Origin: Actinomycetota bacterium
GTDB taxonomy: Bacteria; Actinomycetota; Humimicrobiia; Humimicrobiales; Humimicrobiaceae
Direction: 5' to 3'
DNA: 9,508 nt
Assembly: GCA_022865545.1 (NCBI GenBank)
Contig: JALHTA010000424.1
Location: 1-9,508, forward strand
In this document: positions 3,858-9,250 of the stretch, in pieces
Layout: each line of letters opens with the position of its first letter
Position numbering within the stretch: position 1 is the stretch's first letter
Notes under the pieces: model-generated
What the model was told of the DNA's origin: nothing
The model's database searches: none
What the model saw: only the letters and a program-made list of their open reading frames with translations
Translations under genes and position numbers: made by a program

Positions 3858-3919
3858 AAAAAAAACTCCAAGTAATCTTTTACCATAGTTTGCACCTTAG
3901 GCTGATCAACTACTTGGAG
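3858..3919 (-). terminator. Terminator-like hairpin and U-run ending the small RNA
   Basis: On the minus strand CTCCAAGTA (3919-3911) pairs perfectly with TACTTGGAG (3874-3866), followed at once by eight T (3865-3858). The 36-base loop (3910-3875) is long for an intrinsic terminator, so the loop may have its own structure or function. The first base of the hairpin (3919) is also the last base of the closing stem of the RNA body. Confidence 0.65.
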
Positions 3920-4032
3920 CCATACTTCAGAACTTTTCTTGGGGACTTTCCAAAATCCAGCTTATTATTTAAGTCCTTTCAAACTTAGATTTCAACTAAA
4001 TTCTAGACGTTGCCTTCTGTTCTAAAGTAGGC
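3858..4032 (-). ncRNA. Candidate structured small RNA of about 175 nt
   Basis: Read on the minus strand. A closing stem pairs 4032-4019 (GCCTACTTTAGAAC) with 3933-3919 (GTTCTGAAGTATGGC): 14 pairs, one G-U and a single bulged U. Inside are a 7-bp hairpin (4002-3996 with 3988-3982, loop of seven, one G-U) and a 6-bp hairpin (3976-3971 with 3948-3943, GGACTT/AAGTCC, 22-base loop), giving a three-way junction. Directly after the closing stem comes a 9-bp terminator-like hairpin and eight U. A promoter sits at the right distance upstream. The body lacks a credible ORF. I checked by eye for 6S RNA, tmRNA, RNase P, SRP RNA, T-box, TPP, SAM, cobalamin and c-di-GMP riboswitch signatures and saw none. 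It could be a free-standing sRNA or a long regulatory leader of the phospholipase-like gene, which starts 258 bases downstream. Confidence 0.6.
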
Positions 4033-4036
4033 TTTT

Positions 4037-4065
4037 AATTTACCAAATCTTTGAAAATATGTCAA
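4037..4065 (-). promoter_or_regulatory. Promoter of the candidate small RNA
   Basis: On the minus strand: TTGACA (4065-4060, perfect -35), a 17-base spacer, then TAAATT (4042-4037) preceded by TGG, a TGn-extended -10. Predicted start is 4033-4030, at the first base of the RNA's closing stem. The region upstream (about 4066-4102) is very AT-rich, as expected for an UP element. Confidence 0.65.
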
Positions 4066-4264: not shown

Positions 4265-6628
4265 ATGAAAAATAGAAATATCACCAATAAGATTATTATA
4301 GTCATCGTACTTATTCCTTTACTTGTACTTTCTTTTGGGTATGGTTTTGCCTGGGCCATGGAAAATAATTTTTCCTCAAATGATACTGCCTTTGATTTTG
4401 TACTTATTATAGATGAATCGGGCAGCATGAAACAAAATGATCCTGAAAATAAAAGGATAGATGCTGCAAAACTATTTGTAGAATTAAATGAGATCCTGAC
4501 AAAAGGAAACAGGGTATCAGTTGTCGGGTTCGGGGAGCAGACAAATATATATATTGAACCTACAGAGATAGGGAAAAGTAAAGCTGAGGTTATGGAAGCA
4601 ATTTCCAGCATTAAAAGCAATCAGGCTCTTACCGATATGAAGCTTGCCCTGGAAGATGTCAAATCCATGCTTGATGGAAGGGTAAAAAGAAATAGGACTA
4701 TAATAATATTTTTAACAGATGGGGACCTCGGTGTAGATGATATACCTATTCCTGATGAAATAAGGAAAGGTGATGATAAACCAAAGGAAAAACCGGAACC
4801 TCCTTCCAGGGAGGATATTAATGCAGACAAAGACAGTCCCGGCACAGCTGGGCAGGGTGAGGATCTGGAGGATCCTGCATCTGGAGATGACCAATTGTCG
4901 GAATCAGAAGATAAGCAAATCGATTCTGAACCTGATAGCGCTGAAAGCAGGATTGAGGAATATCTTGAAGAATATAAGGATGAATTATTAAATCTCTGCT
5001 ATGAATACCAGGAAGATAAAATACAAATATTTCCAATTGCTTTCACCGGAGAAGCAAATATAGAAATACTGGAAAAGATAGCCAGTATAACTGAGGCAAG
5101 ACTATGGAGATCCGAGACGGCATCGGATATAAGGGGCATATACCTTGATATTTTTAAATATATCACCAGTGTTTTTATCTTTACCAGCCAGCAACAGGAG
5201 GGTGAAAAACTTACAGGATCAATACCGGTGCAGGATTATATTGGTAAATTAATTGCTATTTCAGTATCAAATGAGGATGTTGAAAACCCGGATATAAAAA
5301 TGACTCCACCAAATGATGCGAAGTCGCAGGATATCCAGGAAATAAGAGATGATTCATATGTGATAAATGCCATAGAAGTGCCAGCACAGGGCAATTGGGA
5401 TTATGAAATAAATGGCGATCTGGTAGTTGCGCTTGACCTTGTAAGGATGAAACTGCTGGATCCGGTGAAAGCAGTATACTTTATGGATTCAAAGGTCCCC
5501 ATTTCTGTCGGGCTTTCTGGAATCGAAGGGGTATCAGGGGAAGTGGATCCATCTGATTTTGAATTATCCTTTAAGGTCAAAAACCCGGATATGCCTGCAA
5601 CAGGGTGGATAGAACTTGCCGACGATGGAGGAGAAGACGATCCTTTAGAGGAAGATGGGATATTTAATTACCAGTTTGATCAAATATCCGGGCCAGGTGA
5701 TTACCTGGTAGAATTATTGATCAAACATAAACCGACAGGTTCAAGCTCACTGAAAGAAACGGTATTTAAAGTAACGGATTATCAGCCAGTTAAAAAAGAT
5801 ATATTCTTAAAAATTGAAAATAATATAATTGCCGGTTCTTCTACAAAAATATATGCAAATTTTGAGGATTTTACTGAGGGTGATTTTAGCTATACTATCT
5901 CAGGTCCTGACGGGGTCGGCAGTAGTGGAAAACTTTTAGATAATGGAGAAATAATAAACGGAGATCAAGAGACTTCAGACGGCATTTACAGCGCTATAAT
6001 TGGAGAGCTGCGGGAAATTGGGGACTATATGATCAAAGTAATGGGAGAATATGAGAGTAGCGAAGGCTATGAGCTTACTCAGGTCCAGGAATTTACCATA
6101 GGGAAATATGTCTTGATCGAAGAAATGGAAGATATTCTAGAGATCAATGGAAAAGATCCGGTCCTTGAATTTAATATCAGGATGGAATCGATTTATGACC
6201 AGGACCTTATTATAGACCTGGACCCTCAGATGAATTCCGGAGGAATGATAAAAAGTATAGAAGTAGGCAGCCATATCCTGGAAGCAGGAGCTAAAAAGGA
6301 TGTGGGACTTAGAGTATTATTAAAGGATGATCTTGAAACAGGGGAGTTTACAGTTTCTATTCCTCTTGTAATCGGGGGAGTCTATAATAATGAGACTGCC
6401 GTCAGTTTCCTTTATAATAAAAGCTCTTTTATGCTGGACCTAAAGACACTGATAGGGCTAATACTTATATTCGCCAGTCTAATACCACTTATATTTTTAC
6501 TCTATACGATTATTAATATGCGTAAGCTGGGAATAAATCTTAAAAGTCCCCGCATAATAATAGAGTTTATTGTATTCATCTTACTTTTTATTGCCGGGCT
6601 AATCGTATTTTTAGCCGGTGGATTTTAA
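4265..6628 (+). CDS. Membrane-anchored von Willebrand factor A protein
   Basis: Encodes 787 residues. ATG 4265 has AAAAGG six bases upstream. Residues 1-31 form a signal peptide (basic start, hydrophobic core, AWA end). A vWA domain spans about 42-305 with a full MIDAS metal site: D50, S52, S54 (DESGS), T123 (ALTD) and D152 (FLTDGD). A strongly acidic, disordered insert of about 70 residues (162-232) interrupts it before the strand IQIFPIAF and the final helices. Two Ig-like beta domains follow, each with an acidic D-G turn and a GDY strand (453-480 and 559-588), then another beta-rich region (about 615-720). Two hydrophobic helices (728-750, 764-785) anchor the C-terminus, so most of the protein should lie outside the cell. 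Likely role is metal-dependent protein binding or adhesion; the ligand is unknown. It seems monocistronic. Confidence 0.85.
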   Translation: MKNRNITNKIIIVIVLIPLLVLSFGYGFAWAMENNFSSNDTAFDFVLIIDESGSMKQNDPENKRIDAAKLFVELNEILTKGNRVSVVGFGEQTNIYIEPTEIGKSKAEVMEAISSIKSNQALTDMKLALEDVKSMLDGRVKRNRTIIIFLTDGDLGVDDIPIPDEIRKGDDKPKEKPEPPSREDINADKDSPGTAGQGEDLEDPASGDDQLSESEDKQIDSEPDSAESRIEEYLEEYKDELLNLCYEYQEDKIQIFPIAFTGEANIEILEKIASITEARLWRSETASDIRGIYLDIFKYITSVFIFTSQQQEGEKLTGSIPVQDYIGKLIAISVSNEDVENPDIKMTPPNDAKSQDIQEIRDDSYVINAIEVPAQGNWDYEINGDLVVALDLVRMKLLDPVKAVYFMDSKVPISVGLSGIEGVSGEVDPSDFELSFKVKNPDMPATGWIELADDGGEDDPLEEDGIFNYQFDQISGPGDYLVELLIKHKPTGSSSLKETVFKVTDYQPVKKDIFLKIENNIIAGSSTKIYANFEDFTEGDFSYTISGPDGVGSSGKLLDNGEIINGDQETSDGIYSAIIGELREIGDYMIKVMGEYESSEGYELTQVQEFTIGKYVLIEEMEDILEINGKDPVLEFNIRMESIYDQDLIIDLDPQMNSGGMIKSIEVGSHILEAGAKKDVGLRVLLKDDLETGEFTVSIPLVIGGVYNNETAVSFLYNKSSFMLDLKTLIGLILIFASLIPLIFLLYTIINMRKLGINLKSPRIIIEFIVFILLFIAGLIVFLAGGF

Positions 6629-6765: not shown

Positions 6766-6885
6766 TATTTTTGAATTTTGTAGTAATTATTCTGGCATTA
6801 AAATGTTGTACAGGCAGGTAAGAATATTTGTCAGATGTTTGTTCTTTTACTGCAAATAATTGAAAATTTCTACAACTATCAAATT

Positions 6886-7368
6886 ATGGAAGAAGAAAAA
6901 AAATTCTATACCGTCAAGGAGACCACCGAAATACTGGGGATCAGTGAAAATGAGATCCTACGGATTATCGAGTCCAAGAAGATACCTGTACTAAAAGTGG
7001 GGAGGGCCTTGAGGATCAGTGGAGAAAATATCCATAAATTCCTTGAAGGCTCAGGAGAATCAGTACCGGTTCAGGAAACAGTAGTACTTGATCAGGAACT
7101 GAAAGAAGTATTTTCCCCTGACTCGATTGAAGATGAAGAGACCAGTGATATTTCAGAACTTAGCTACAAGACAAGTGAATTAAAAGATGAATATGATGAG
7201 CTTCTTAAGAAAAAACAGGAACTTGAAGAAGACATAAACTACCTGCAGATCGAATATGAAGAATTCAGAGAAAAGATGAAAAAACTGGTTGTGGAAGAAT
7301 TAAAATCACTTCTTAAAAAAATAGATAATGGGAAATTAGATTTAGAGGAAAAATCTTTCAAAGAGTGA
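6886..7368 (+). CDS. Excisionase-type HTH protein with coiled-coil tail
   Basis: Encodes 160 residues from ATG 6886. Residues 7-55 form a MerR-like/excisionase HTH_17 domain: FYTVKETTEILGISENEI, then IIESKKIPVLKVGRALRI and a closing helix IHKFLEG. This fold binds DNA and occurs in phage excisionases, BldC-type regulators and many small bacterial regulators. Residues about 56-90 are an acidic linker; about 91-147 form a heptad-rich coiled coil (ELKDEYDELLKKKQELEE and onward) that likely drives dimer or oligomer formation. No integrase lies beside it, so a regulatory or nucleoid role fits better than excision. No clear SD precedes ATG 6886 or the in-frame ATG 6835; 6886 is chosen because the HTH begins right after it. 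It is 16 bases upstream of the GGDEF/HD-GYP gene, so the two are probably co-transcribed. Target sites are unknown. Confidence 0.8.
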   Translation: MEEEKKFYTVKETTEILGISENEILRIIESKKIPVLKVGRALRISGENIHKFLEGSGESVPVQETVVLDQELKEVFSPDSIEDEETSDISELSYKTSELKDEYDELLKKKQELEEDINYLQIEYEEFREKMKKLVVEELKSLLKKIDNGKLDLEEKSFKE

Positions 7369-7384: not shown

Positions 7385-9250
7385 ATGGATATTGAAAAGA
7401 TAACAAAGACTCAATTGATCAATAAATTAATTGAGCAACACCAAAGAATTAAAAGGCTTGAGAGAAGGTCTGAAGAAGAGATAGACCGTATAAAAAGCAC
7501 CCTGAAAGAGGATAATGGCAAATTCGAGAGCCTCACGGAAACTAACTCCATAGGAATCCTGACAATAGATGATAAAGGTATCATCAATTCATGTAATGAT
7601 TCGATCCTTGAATTCTCAGGGTACAGCAGAAGTAATCTCATTGGAAAATATTTCAGTAAAAGAGTCTCCATAAGCACAAAAGATATTCCCAAATATCTGT
7701 CGATCTTTAAAAACATACTATCCGGCAAGGAAGCAGAACCCTTTGAGATAGCACAGCATCACAAGGATGGGCAAATAAGATATGGTGAAGTATATTTTGG
7801 CCCCATAAAAGAAGGTAATGATAGAATATCAGGGTTTAAGCTCATTATACGGGATATATCAAACCTGAAGGAGCTTGAAGAGCAGTTAAAAGACTCTGAA
7901 GAGAAATTCGATGTTTTTCTCGAGACCTCAATAGATAGTATAGTTCTTCATGATAATGGCAAGATAATAAAAGTAAATCAGCCCTTCCTGGACCTTTTCA
8001 ATATAGACATCGACGATCTGAAAGGGAAATCTTTATTAGATTTTATTTCAGAAGATTGCCGCGATATTCTGGAAGAAAAGATCGAAGAAAGTTATAAAGG
8101 CGGTTTTGAGTTACACGGCCTTAAAAGTAGTGGAAGCAAGGTATATTTTGAAGTATCCGGACAAGATATTTTTTATGATGATAGGCTGGTCCGCATGGAG
8201 ATACTGCATGATATAAGCGATCTCAGGAAAGCTGAGAAGAAGATCAAATATTTAAAATTCCATGATAGTCTTACAGAACTATATAACCGTAGCTATCTTG
8301 AAAAAGTATTGGGTAATGTCTACCGCGAAAGACATCTTCCATTAAACTTTATCATCTGCGACCTGAATGGATTAAAACTGGTAAATGATACTTTTGGCTA
8401 TAATGAAGGAGATAAACTTCTAAAAAGGGTTGCAAAGATATTGAAATATTGTTCCAGGAAAGAAGATATAGTCGCCAGATGGGGAGGAGACGAATTTTTC
8501 ATCCTCCTGCCCCGGTCAACCCCCGGTGAAGTCGAAGATGTATTGTATAAGATAAGAAATATCTGTGCAAGCACCAAAGACCAGAAGATACCCTTGAACA
8601 TGTCGATGGGGATCTCGGCAAGGACCAGCCTGGAACAGAATTTCATAGAAGTCATAAGGGAAGCAGAAGACAATATGTACACTAATAAGCTTCTTGAAAG
8701 AAAGAGTATATATAATTCCATAATCACATCCTTTGAAAGAATGCTCTGGGAAAAAAGCCACGAGACAAGAGATCATGCCGAGCGCCTGAAAGGAATGATA
8801 GTCAGGCTGGGTAAGTCTATCAGTCTTCCGCAGAGTAAACTTGACGAACTCGTTTTGCTTTCAACCTTACATGATATCGGGAAAGTCGCAGTTCCTGACA
8901 GCATATTGATGAAAAAGGGCAAGCTGAATAAAGATGAATGGAAAGTAATCAGAAGACACCCTGAGATCGGATATAATATTGCAAAATCTACTCCTCAAAT
9001 AGCAATGGTCGCCGAAGATATCCTGGCACACCATGAATGGTGGGATGGAAGTGGATATCCGCAAAGCTTAAAAGGAGATGAAATACCTGTTAACTCCCGC
9101 ATAACATCCATTGTGGATGCCTATGATGTGATGACTATGGGAAGGCCTTACAAGGAACCAATTCCCATAAAAGATGCAAAGGAAGAATTAATAAGATGTG
9201 CAGGGACCCAGTTCAGCCCAGTTCTTGTTGATAAATTTGTGAGAATCTAA
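7385..9250 (+). CDS. PAS-PAS-GGDEF-HD-GYP c-di-GMP turnover protein
   Basis: Encodes 621 residues with no transmembrane segment, so a soluble sensor enzyme. An N-terminal coiled coil (1-45) precedes PAS 1 (about 46-160) and PAS 2 (about 174-282), each ending in a helical connector. A GGDEF diguanylate cyclase domain (about 284-440) has DLNGLKLVND (326-335), an intact GGDEF at 367-371 and a correctly spaced inhibitory I-site (R358, D361 in RKEDIVARWGGDEF). An HD-GYP phosphodiesterase domain (about 450-621) keeps H464, H496-D497 (LHDIGK), H525, H549-H550, GYP (557-559) and D578. By family knowledge it could make c-di-GMP from two GTP and also degrade it to pGpG or GMP, with the PAS signal setting the balance. 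The ligand or cofactor of the PAS domains is unknown. ATG 7385 has no good SD, so coupling to the HTH gene is possible. Its stop touches the start of the next gene. Confidence 0.93.
   Translation: MDIEKITKTQLINKLIEQHQRIKRLERRSEEEIDRIKSTLKEDNGKFESLTETNSIGILTIDDKGIINSCNDSILEFSGYSRSNLIGKYFSKRVSISTKDIPKYLSIFKNILSGKEAEPFEIAQHHKDGQIRYGEVYFGPIKEGNDRISGFKLIIRDISNLKELEEQLKDSEEKFDVFLETSIDSIVLHDNGKIIKVNQPFLDLFNIDIDDLKGKSLLDFISEDCRDILEEKIEESYKGGFELHGLKSSGSKVYFEVSGQDIFYDDRLVRMEILHDISDLRKAEKKIKYLKFHDSLTELYNRSYLEKVLGNVYRERHLPLNFIICDLNGLKLVNDTFGYNEGDKLLKRVAKILKYCSRKEDIVARWGGDEFFILLPRSTPGEVEDVLYKIRNICASTKDQKIPLNMSMGISARTSLEQNFIEVIREAEDNMYTNKLLERKSIYNSIITSFERMLWEKSHETRDHAERLKGMIVRLGKSISLPQSKLDELVLLSTLHDIGKVAVPDSILMKKGKLNKDEWKVIRRHPEIGYNIAKSTPQIAMVAEDILAHHEWWDGSGYPQSLKGDEIPVNSRITSIVDAYDVMTMGRPYKEPIPIKDAKEELIRCAGTQFSPVLVDKFVRI

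Follow-up and report, generated by a model that had tools for sequence, protein, structure and literature searches.

The stretch of DNA analyzed here, 9,508 nucleotides from an Actinomycetota bacterium and called the window throughout, carries on its minus strand, in this order, a promoter-like site (TTGACA / TGn-TAAATT), a foldable body and a terminator hairpin followed by eight T (Table 1). This putative RNA gene is flanked by a divergently oriented gene for a von Willebrand A (VWA) protein (4265-6628, plus strand) and by a zinc-dependent phospholipase C-like gene (3534-2611, minus strand). The plus strand of the window also encodes a PAS-GGDEF-HD protein (7385-9250) and, adjoining it, a small HTH_17 protein (6835-7368), which in another genome, G015, is again accompanied by the VWA gene.

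The initial annotation took this region for the gene of a small structured RNA, seemingly not described before, that has a promoter and a terminator of its own. The two promoter elements that it named, their 17-nt spacer and the T run are all present in the sequence. A promoter scan gave the window promoter a score of 10/12, with a TG ahead of the second hexamer. Such sites are common (52 were found, compared to 37.7 expected in shuffled sequences), and the window promoter by itself is therefore no proof. The start of the RNA was placed at about 4032-4030, since the distance from the -10 element to the model start is 4-6 nt in 65 of 76 copies; the transcript would then be a structured RNA of about 173 nt.

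Folding of positions 4032 to 3858 yielded -55.3 kcal/mol (z -5.25), and none of 200 shuffled sequences folded as well. The proposed closing stem (4032-4019 with 3933-3919) is part of the MFE structure, with 14 pairs and one bulge; across copies it was followed over nine pairs only (4027-4019 with 3925-3933), which are termed P1. Inside this stem two hairpins had been expected, but a single long interrupted arm consisting of P2 and P3 was found instead. The second correction concerns the 9-bp hairpin ahead of the T run, P5, which closes a 36-nt apical region containing a tetraloop receptor. A simple terminator scan that permits loops of 3-8 did not list the window terminator, the loop of which is longer.

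Table 1. Position of the putative RNA gene and its parts in the window.
Feature	Position	Strand	Observation
-35 element, TTGACA	4065-4060	-	read from the sequence; exact in 55 of 76 copies examined
Extended -10 element, TGG (4045-4043) and TAAATT (4042-4037), 17-nt spacer	4037-4045	-	of 76 copies, 64 have TGn and 61 the 17-nt spacing
Putative RNA gene body through the T run	3858-4030	-	R1 match of 161.6 bits; model match 4030-3856; start uncertain
P1, 5' strand, pairs with 3925-3933	4019-4027	-	helix 1: pairing in 94.0% of cells; both sides changed in 7 of 9 pairs
Internal loop, 5' side, AGAAGGCAAC; commonest form AGGAGGCAAC (39 of 69 copies)	4009-4018	-	conserved
P2, 5' strand, pairs with 3949-3962	3994-4007	-	helix 2: pairing in 79.3% of cells; both sides changed in 12 of 14 pairs
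P3 hairpin, 3987-3981 with 3970-3976, GAAA tetraloop 3980-3977	3970-3987	-	helix 3: 6 of 7 pairs changed on both sides; GAAA in 67 of 69 copies
P2, 3' strand	3949-3962	-	helix mapping and pair counts
Internal loop, 3' side, CCCCAAGAAAA; commonest form CCCUGAGAAAA	3934-3944	-	conserved
P1, 3' strand	3925-3933	-	helix mapping and pair counts
P5 terminator hairpin, 3919-3911 with 3866-3874	3866-3919	-	helix 4: 3 of 9 pairs changed on both sides, 5 never vary
Receptor, 5' strand, CCUAAG	3896-3901	-	CCUAAG or CCUAAA in 60 of 69 copies
Receptor, 3' strand, UAUGG	3883-3887	-	U132-A145 in 69 of 69 copies
P5 tip loop, GCAA	3890-3893	-	GNNA loop in 48 of 69 copies, six different sequences
Terminator U8	3858-3865	-	79 of 81 copies scoring at least 100 bits have 8 T or more close to the 3' end

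Distribution and copy number of the RNA family

No Rfam 15 family reached its gathering score in the window or in five other loci bearing copies of the RNA, and the matches listed (E 0.5-7) remained far under the gathering scores, in agreement with the initial annotation, which could not assign the RNA to a known class. For 6S RNA (RF00013), the window showed no match even at E values as high as 10. Since 6S RNA is of similar length and also consists of one long interrupted arm, the present RNA might be taken for a diverged 6S or other housekeeping RNA. A separate 6S match over the Rfam cut-off was detected in 31 of 40 genomes of the class, the source genome included, and the present RNA, for which no Rfam match was obtained, occurs in up to 10 copies, making this explanation extremely improbable.

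BLASTN identified three copies in the source genome at E < 1e-10, and in a set of 100 genomes including the source the best matches (E < 1e-3) were confined to the family of the source genome, f1. We built a covariance model (R1) from an alignment (A1) of 28 oriented copies, from which one copy cut by a contig end (L024) was excluded. Across 40 genomes of the class, R1 matched in 34, corresponding to 34 of the 35 genomes of family f1 and none of the five others. The 103 matches in these genomes, 99 of which scored at least 57 bits, amount to 1-10 copies per genome, with seven matches in the source genome; four matches of 33-38 bits were kept out of the counts. The only f1 genome without a match, G011, is 79% complete; the RNA may truly have been lost from it or may lie in sequence that the assembly lacks.

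A search of 296 genomes of the phylum with R1 gave matches in 24, every one of them from f1. A wider model (R2), built from 98 copies and used at E 0.05 with stricter filters, matched 33 of 396 genomes, again all f1, showing that the wider model added no range, and the one f1 genome listed without a match was once more G011; about 362 phylum genomes of other families were without an R2 match, a number for which G032 was taken as not sampled and not every genome is named. The exact pattern of the 3' hairpin was also searched in a collection of 84,980 species, each represented by a single genome, and matched 28 stretches, 23 of them titled Actinomycetota, Actinobacteria or Actinomycetes and two titled only 'bacterium'. 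Two Candidatus Hydromicrobium americanum and one Candidatus Humimicrobium oleiphilum are among these matches; the named carriers are MAGs of Candidatus Humimicrobiia, the class in which NCBI places Hydromicrobium. Viral contigs contained no exact match to the pattern, and plasmids and phages no blastn match. Among the open papers returned by literature searches, no title or abstract opening named an RNA from the Humimicrobiia lineage.

We have hardly any doubt that this structured RNA family is genuine. It is a new family of a known kind, the small structured RNAs, and its unusual feature is a tertiary receptor built into the terminator. With it, an RNA family unmatched in Rfam is added from a deep, uncultured actinobacterial class, and it can be detected with a covariance model.

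Fold, covariation and extent of the conserved unit

The pair count in A1 showed that 86.9% of the cells are paired and that 29 of 44 pairs changed on both sides, compared to 17.4 in shuffles. None of 500 shuffles was as high on any measure, and slid partners gave 11-19. Not all pairs of the window are kept in the 28 copies: of the inner P3 pairs, one is not formed in 19 copies and another in 13, and one P5 pair is not formed in 23.

For a phylogeny-aware test, which keeps the tree and the substitution counts, 69 of the 98 copies were used (length 165-182, better-scoring rows, less than 97% identity, four odd loci removed), and all column pairs, about 14,700, were covered. Nine of the 10 best covarying column pairs fall in predicted helices, the exception being an A-U pair within the P2/P3 loop. 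P1, P3 and P5 contain all of the six top-ranked pairs (E 0.014 to 0.42), and the best P2 pair ranks tenth (E 11). Since just one pair has E < 0.05, the support from this test lies in the ranking. The consensus pair probability in P5 is 0.96-1.0 for eight of nine columns tested, and folding of the 69 copies resulted in a median z of -4.3 (range -9.3 to -0.3, 20 shuffles each). At the level of sequence comparison, compensatory changes support P1, P2, P3 and P5.

No reading frame is common to the 69 copies, in which the longest complete ORFs have a median length of 11 codons and attain 30 codons in only five cases. A peptide led by the Shine-Dalgarno (SD)-like motif was rejected, as an ATG or GTG follows within 15 nt of the motif in just 3 of 69 copies.

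Promoter-like sites are kept ahead of most copies. A score of at least 10/12 was obtained for 67 of 76 copies and for 21 of 907 control windows, and a score of at least 9/12 for 71 of 76 copies and 148 of 907 control windows; the -10 consensus used for this score (TATATT) was derived from the copies themselves, and the count omits 17 copies below 100 bits and five without upstream sequence. Comparison of copies within genomes showed that in 102 of 118 pairs the similarity is confined to the region from -60 to 12 nt beyond the RNA end. It extends to within 8 nt of the 3' end in 105 of the 118 pairs, and to -15 or beyond, that is into the promoter, in only 28, showing that the 3' half is best kept. 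The 16 pairs not confined to this region exceed the unit from promoter to terminator; they are mostly local duplications in G033, G034, G010 and G012 and two RRM loci of G000.

Copies are also found close together. In G012 two RNA subtypes are adjacent (L094:4224-4877), and G021 has two copies on one contig (L090:4001-5887). Related copies in genus g7 (L106, L109, L117, L099, L095) cluster by toxin-antitoxin genes (Gp49-like, HicA, BrnT); several of them are truncated at the 5' end or within the P5 tip, perhaps indicating an insertion hot spot.

A non-autonomous mobile repeat, MITE-like or attC-like, on which the transcription signals would be incidental, could account for up to 10 copies per genome, for truncated copies and for the cluster in one genus. 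Such a repeat would not be expected to show compensatory base pairs, similarity mostly within the limits of promoter and terminator, or recurrent neighbours at the ilvE, tyrA and VWA loci described below, and neither the exact pattern in viral contigs nor blastn against phages and plasmids gave a match. Among the inverted-repeat arm pairs listed for three loci, none was common to all; AT-rich arm pairs flank two of the loci (for L134, 25 of 44 pairs were listed). We regard this explanation as very improbable.

The doubt whether the arrangement in the window arose by chance is answered by the homologues, through the model matches, the kept promoter-like sites, the pair counts and the extents of similarity between paralogues. 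Full-length copies are present elsewhere in the source genome and in relatives, helices show compensatory changes, and promoter-like site and T run are kept together with the body. The initial interpretation as a gene, which would be transcribed from its own promoter, is supported as far as sequence goes; the family-wide occurrence in several copies, the GAAA loop with its receptor and the neighbours were beyond the reach of the initial annotation.

Genes next to the RNA copies

Neighbouring genes were counted for 98 of the 99 stronger copies (G033:C183 was left out), using ORFs of at least 60 codons from a simple caller. For 49 copies the closest ORF downstream has the same orientation as the RNA and for 43 the opposite one; six have none. 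In 22 genomes the RNA is followed, in the same orientation and at a distance of 27 to 414 nt, by a class IV aminotransferase gene (ilvE by inspection); this holds for 22 of 22 ilvE-side loci. The prephenate dehydrogenase gene tyrA lies upstream and divergent in 15 genomes; all 15 copies are directed away from it, and the next downstream ORF is on the opposite strand in 14. The VWA-divergent locus is common to the window and G015, and its copies form one clade in the RNA tree (support 0.97, inner nodes 0.46-0.87). The copies by ilvE and tyrA are concrete places to seek a function.

The ilvE-side loci, with the RNA only 27 nt ahead of the gene in G010, would be compatible with a riboswitch or attenuator acting in cis, in which a signal would be sensed by the P1-P3 arm and P5 would control, as a conditional terminator, the gene that follows (ilvE, an RRM gene, a K+ channel gene or others). 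Four loci (L080/L203, L082, L103/L204 and L205; about 1100-1500 in L203) point in the same direction, as a divergent RNA subtype sits there between a promoter-like site and the leader of an RRM gene, apparently with no promoter between this RNA and the RRM genes. Tetraloop docking is, moreover, known in the c-di-GMP riboswitch aptamer (PMC3494683, Table 1). However, a constant co-directional position was found in the ilvE subset and not in the family, where 43 of the 92 copies with a downstream ORF have the nearest one on the opposite strand, and the tyrA-side copies mostly run toward an opposite-strand ORF. Between RNA and ilvE, a promoter-like stretch, TTGCA(A/T)...TAnAAT, was detected with a loose pattern in 16 of the 22 loci; in G000 the stretch does lie in this interval. 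A simple test on the MFE of the incomplete transcript detected no conserved antiterminator, any alternative partner of the P5 5' arm being limited to at most 8 of 69 copies. On account of the strand statistics, the tyrA-side loci and the missing antiterminator we consider a general cis riboswitch unlikely. The four RRM loci and G010 keep the option for some copies, and ilvE-side and RRM-linked copies may act in cis or be transcribed through.

The promoter-like TTGCAAAATGAAATTAAAATAAGTACAATAT ahead of ilvE has a similar form across several genera. The RRM leader of ~100 nt is conserved, directly follows a promoter-like site in many other RRM loci and resembles a separate element. The RRM protein is not supported as a partner of the RNA, as RRM matches occur in 39 of 40 genomes, including some without detected RNA, and only three of 30 RRM loci searched had an R1 match at E < 1e-3.

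Tetraloop, receptor and proposed function

The P3 loop is nearly invariant, the two copies without GAAA having AAAA in these columns. Columns 130-135 and 144-148 of P5 mostly read CCUAA(G/A) and (U)A(N)GG; the window has exactly the standard receptor CCUAAG/UAUGG as given in PMC11381326. The U-A contact of the receptor is present in all 69 copies, and the platform is A-A in 64 and A-C in five; an A-to-C change of one platform residue is found in one of four crystal structures in PMC3494683. The outer C-G becomes U-A jointly in three copies, and at the G-U position only 49 copies carry G-U or A-U. The residue known to flip out in this motif is variable (U 32, A 29, G 7, C 1). A strict fit, GAAA with CCUAA and A.GG, was observed for 58 copies; the 11 exceptions are five A-C platforms, three compensated outer pairs, two AAAA in the loop columns and one broken C-G. 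The tip loop of P5 is much more variable than the P3 loop (Table 1), which assigns the fixed GAAA to P3. In the retrieved loci, strings resembling the receptor are rare beyond the copies, with 20 outside compared to 88 inside, second copies on a locus being counted as outside.

The presence of a GAAA loop and a matching receptor in one RNA predicts intramolecular docking, and we consider it likely that the P3 loop docks into the P5 receptor. That this takes place within one molecule is our inference; it could also occur between molecules. The internal loop between P1 and P2 differs by subtype: most copies have AGGAGGYAAC facing CCUGAG, and other sequences are found in the RRM-linked subtype. 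The divergent subtype without AGGAGG retains loop and receptor in the copies displayed.

Base-pairing with mRNAs, for example those of ilvE or tyrA, through the SD-like AGGAGG or a UCCCU segment would make the RNA an antisense sRNA. The promoter-like site, the terminator and the sibling copies would suit such a function, AGGAGGCAAC, AGGAGGUAAC or AGAAGGCAAC is present in 58 of 69 copies, and amino-acid genes lie beside two recurrent loci. Yet P3 and P5 end in tetraloops, about 3 nt lie between the predicted start and P1, and base conservation is concentrated in internal loops and P5. Hfq was detected in none of the 40 class genomes, while the same search was positive in 5 of 14 control genomes. 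We therefore judge base-pairing with mRNAs to be improbable. Sequestration of CsrA was also compared with the distribution of the RNA: CsrA was found in 5 of 40 class genomes, one of them without the RNA (the search was positive in 3 of 14 control genomes), and the RNA is present in far more (34 of 40).

We favour, with a probability of roughly 0.55, a free-standing, trans-acting RNA with a docked fold that probably binds a protein. Here, the GAAA loop would dock into the 11-nt receptor inside the RNA's own terminator hairpin, and docking would bend the P1-P2-P3 arm against P5. The bent arm would present the conserved internal loop, GGYAAC facing CC..AGAAAAG, as a binding face, and formation of P5 would both end transcription and complete the fold. 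By exclusion, the partner is probably a protein, less likely a small molecule; an mRNA is disfavoured, since the fold leaves few conserved bases single-stranded and no Hfq was detected. The copies by ilvE, tyrA, the VWA gene and elsewhere, most of them with a promoter-like site ahead and a T run behind, would be siblings, their separate promoters tuning one RNA function to different signals. From the receptor located in the terminator hairpin follows the testable prediction that termination of the transcript and completion of its tertiary fold coincide in a single step.

A more tentative extension is a new class of trans-acting RNAs in which docking provides a common rigid chassis and the P1/P2 internal loop is swapped between subtypes. 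If true, sibling RNAs on one chassis would present different binding heads in a lineage without detected Hfq.

Several known systems share single features with this RNA. Sibling sRNAs such as CsrB occur in several copies per genome with an own promoter each (PMC6262261), which is similar to the present family; in contrast, CsrA was found in few of the class genomes. Compared to 6S RNA (RF00013), the RNA has an additional P5 with a receptor, is multi-copy and occurs in addition to a separate 6S gene elsewhere in the genome. In the c-di-GMP class I riboswitch a tetraloop likewise touches a neighbouring helix, a contact filed as a minor-groove contact in Table 1 of PMC3494683, whereas the present RNA has neither an Rfam match nor a constant downstream gene. 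With the GAAA tetraloop/11-nt receptor systems of the group I intron P4-P6 domain and the RNase P specificity domain it has the receptor, the U-A contact, the platform and the GAAA loop in common; here, by contrast, the receptor is located within the intrinsic terminator hairpin of a small RNA, into which the tetraloop is predicted to dock.
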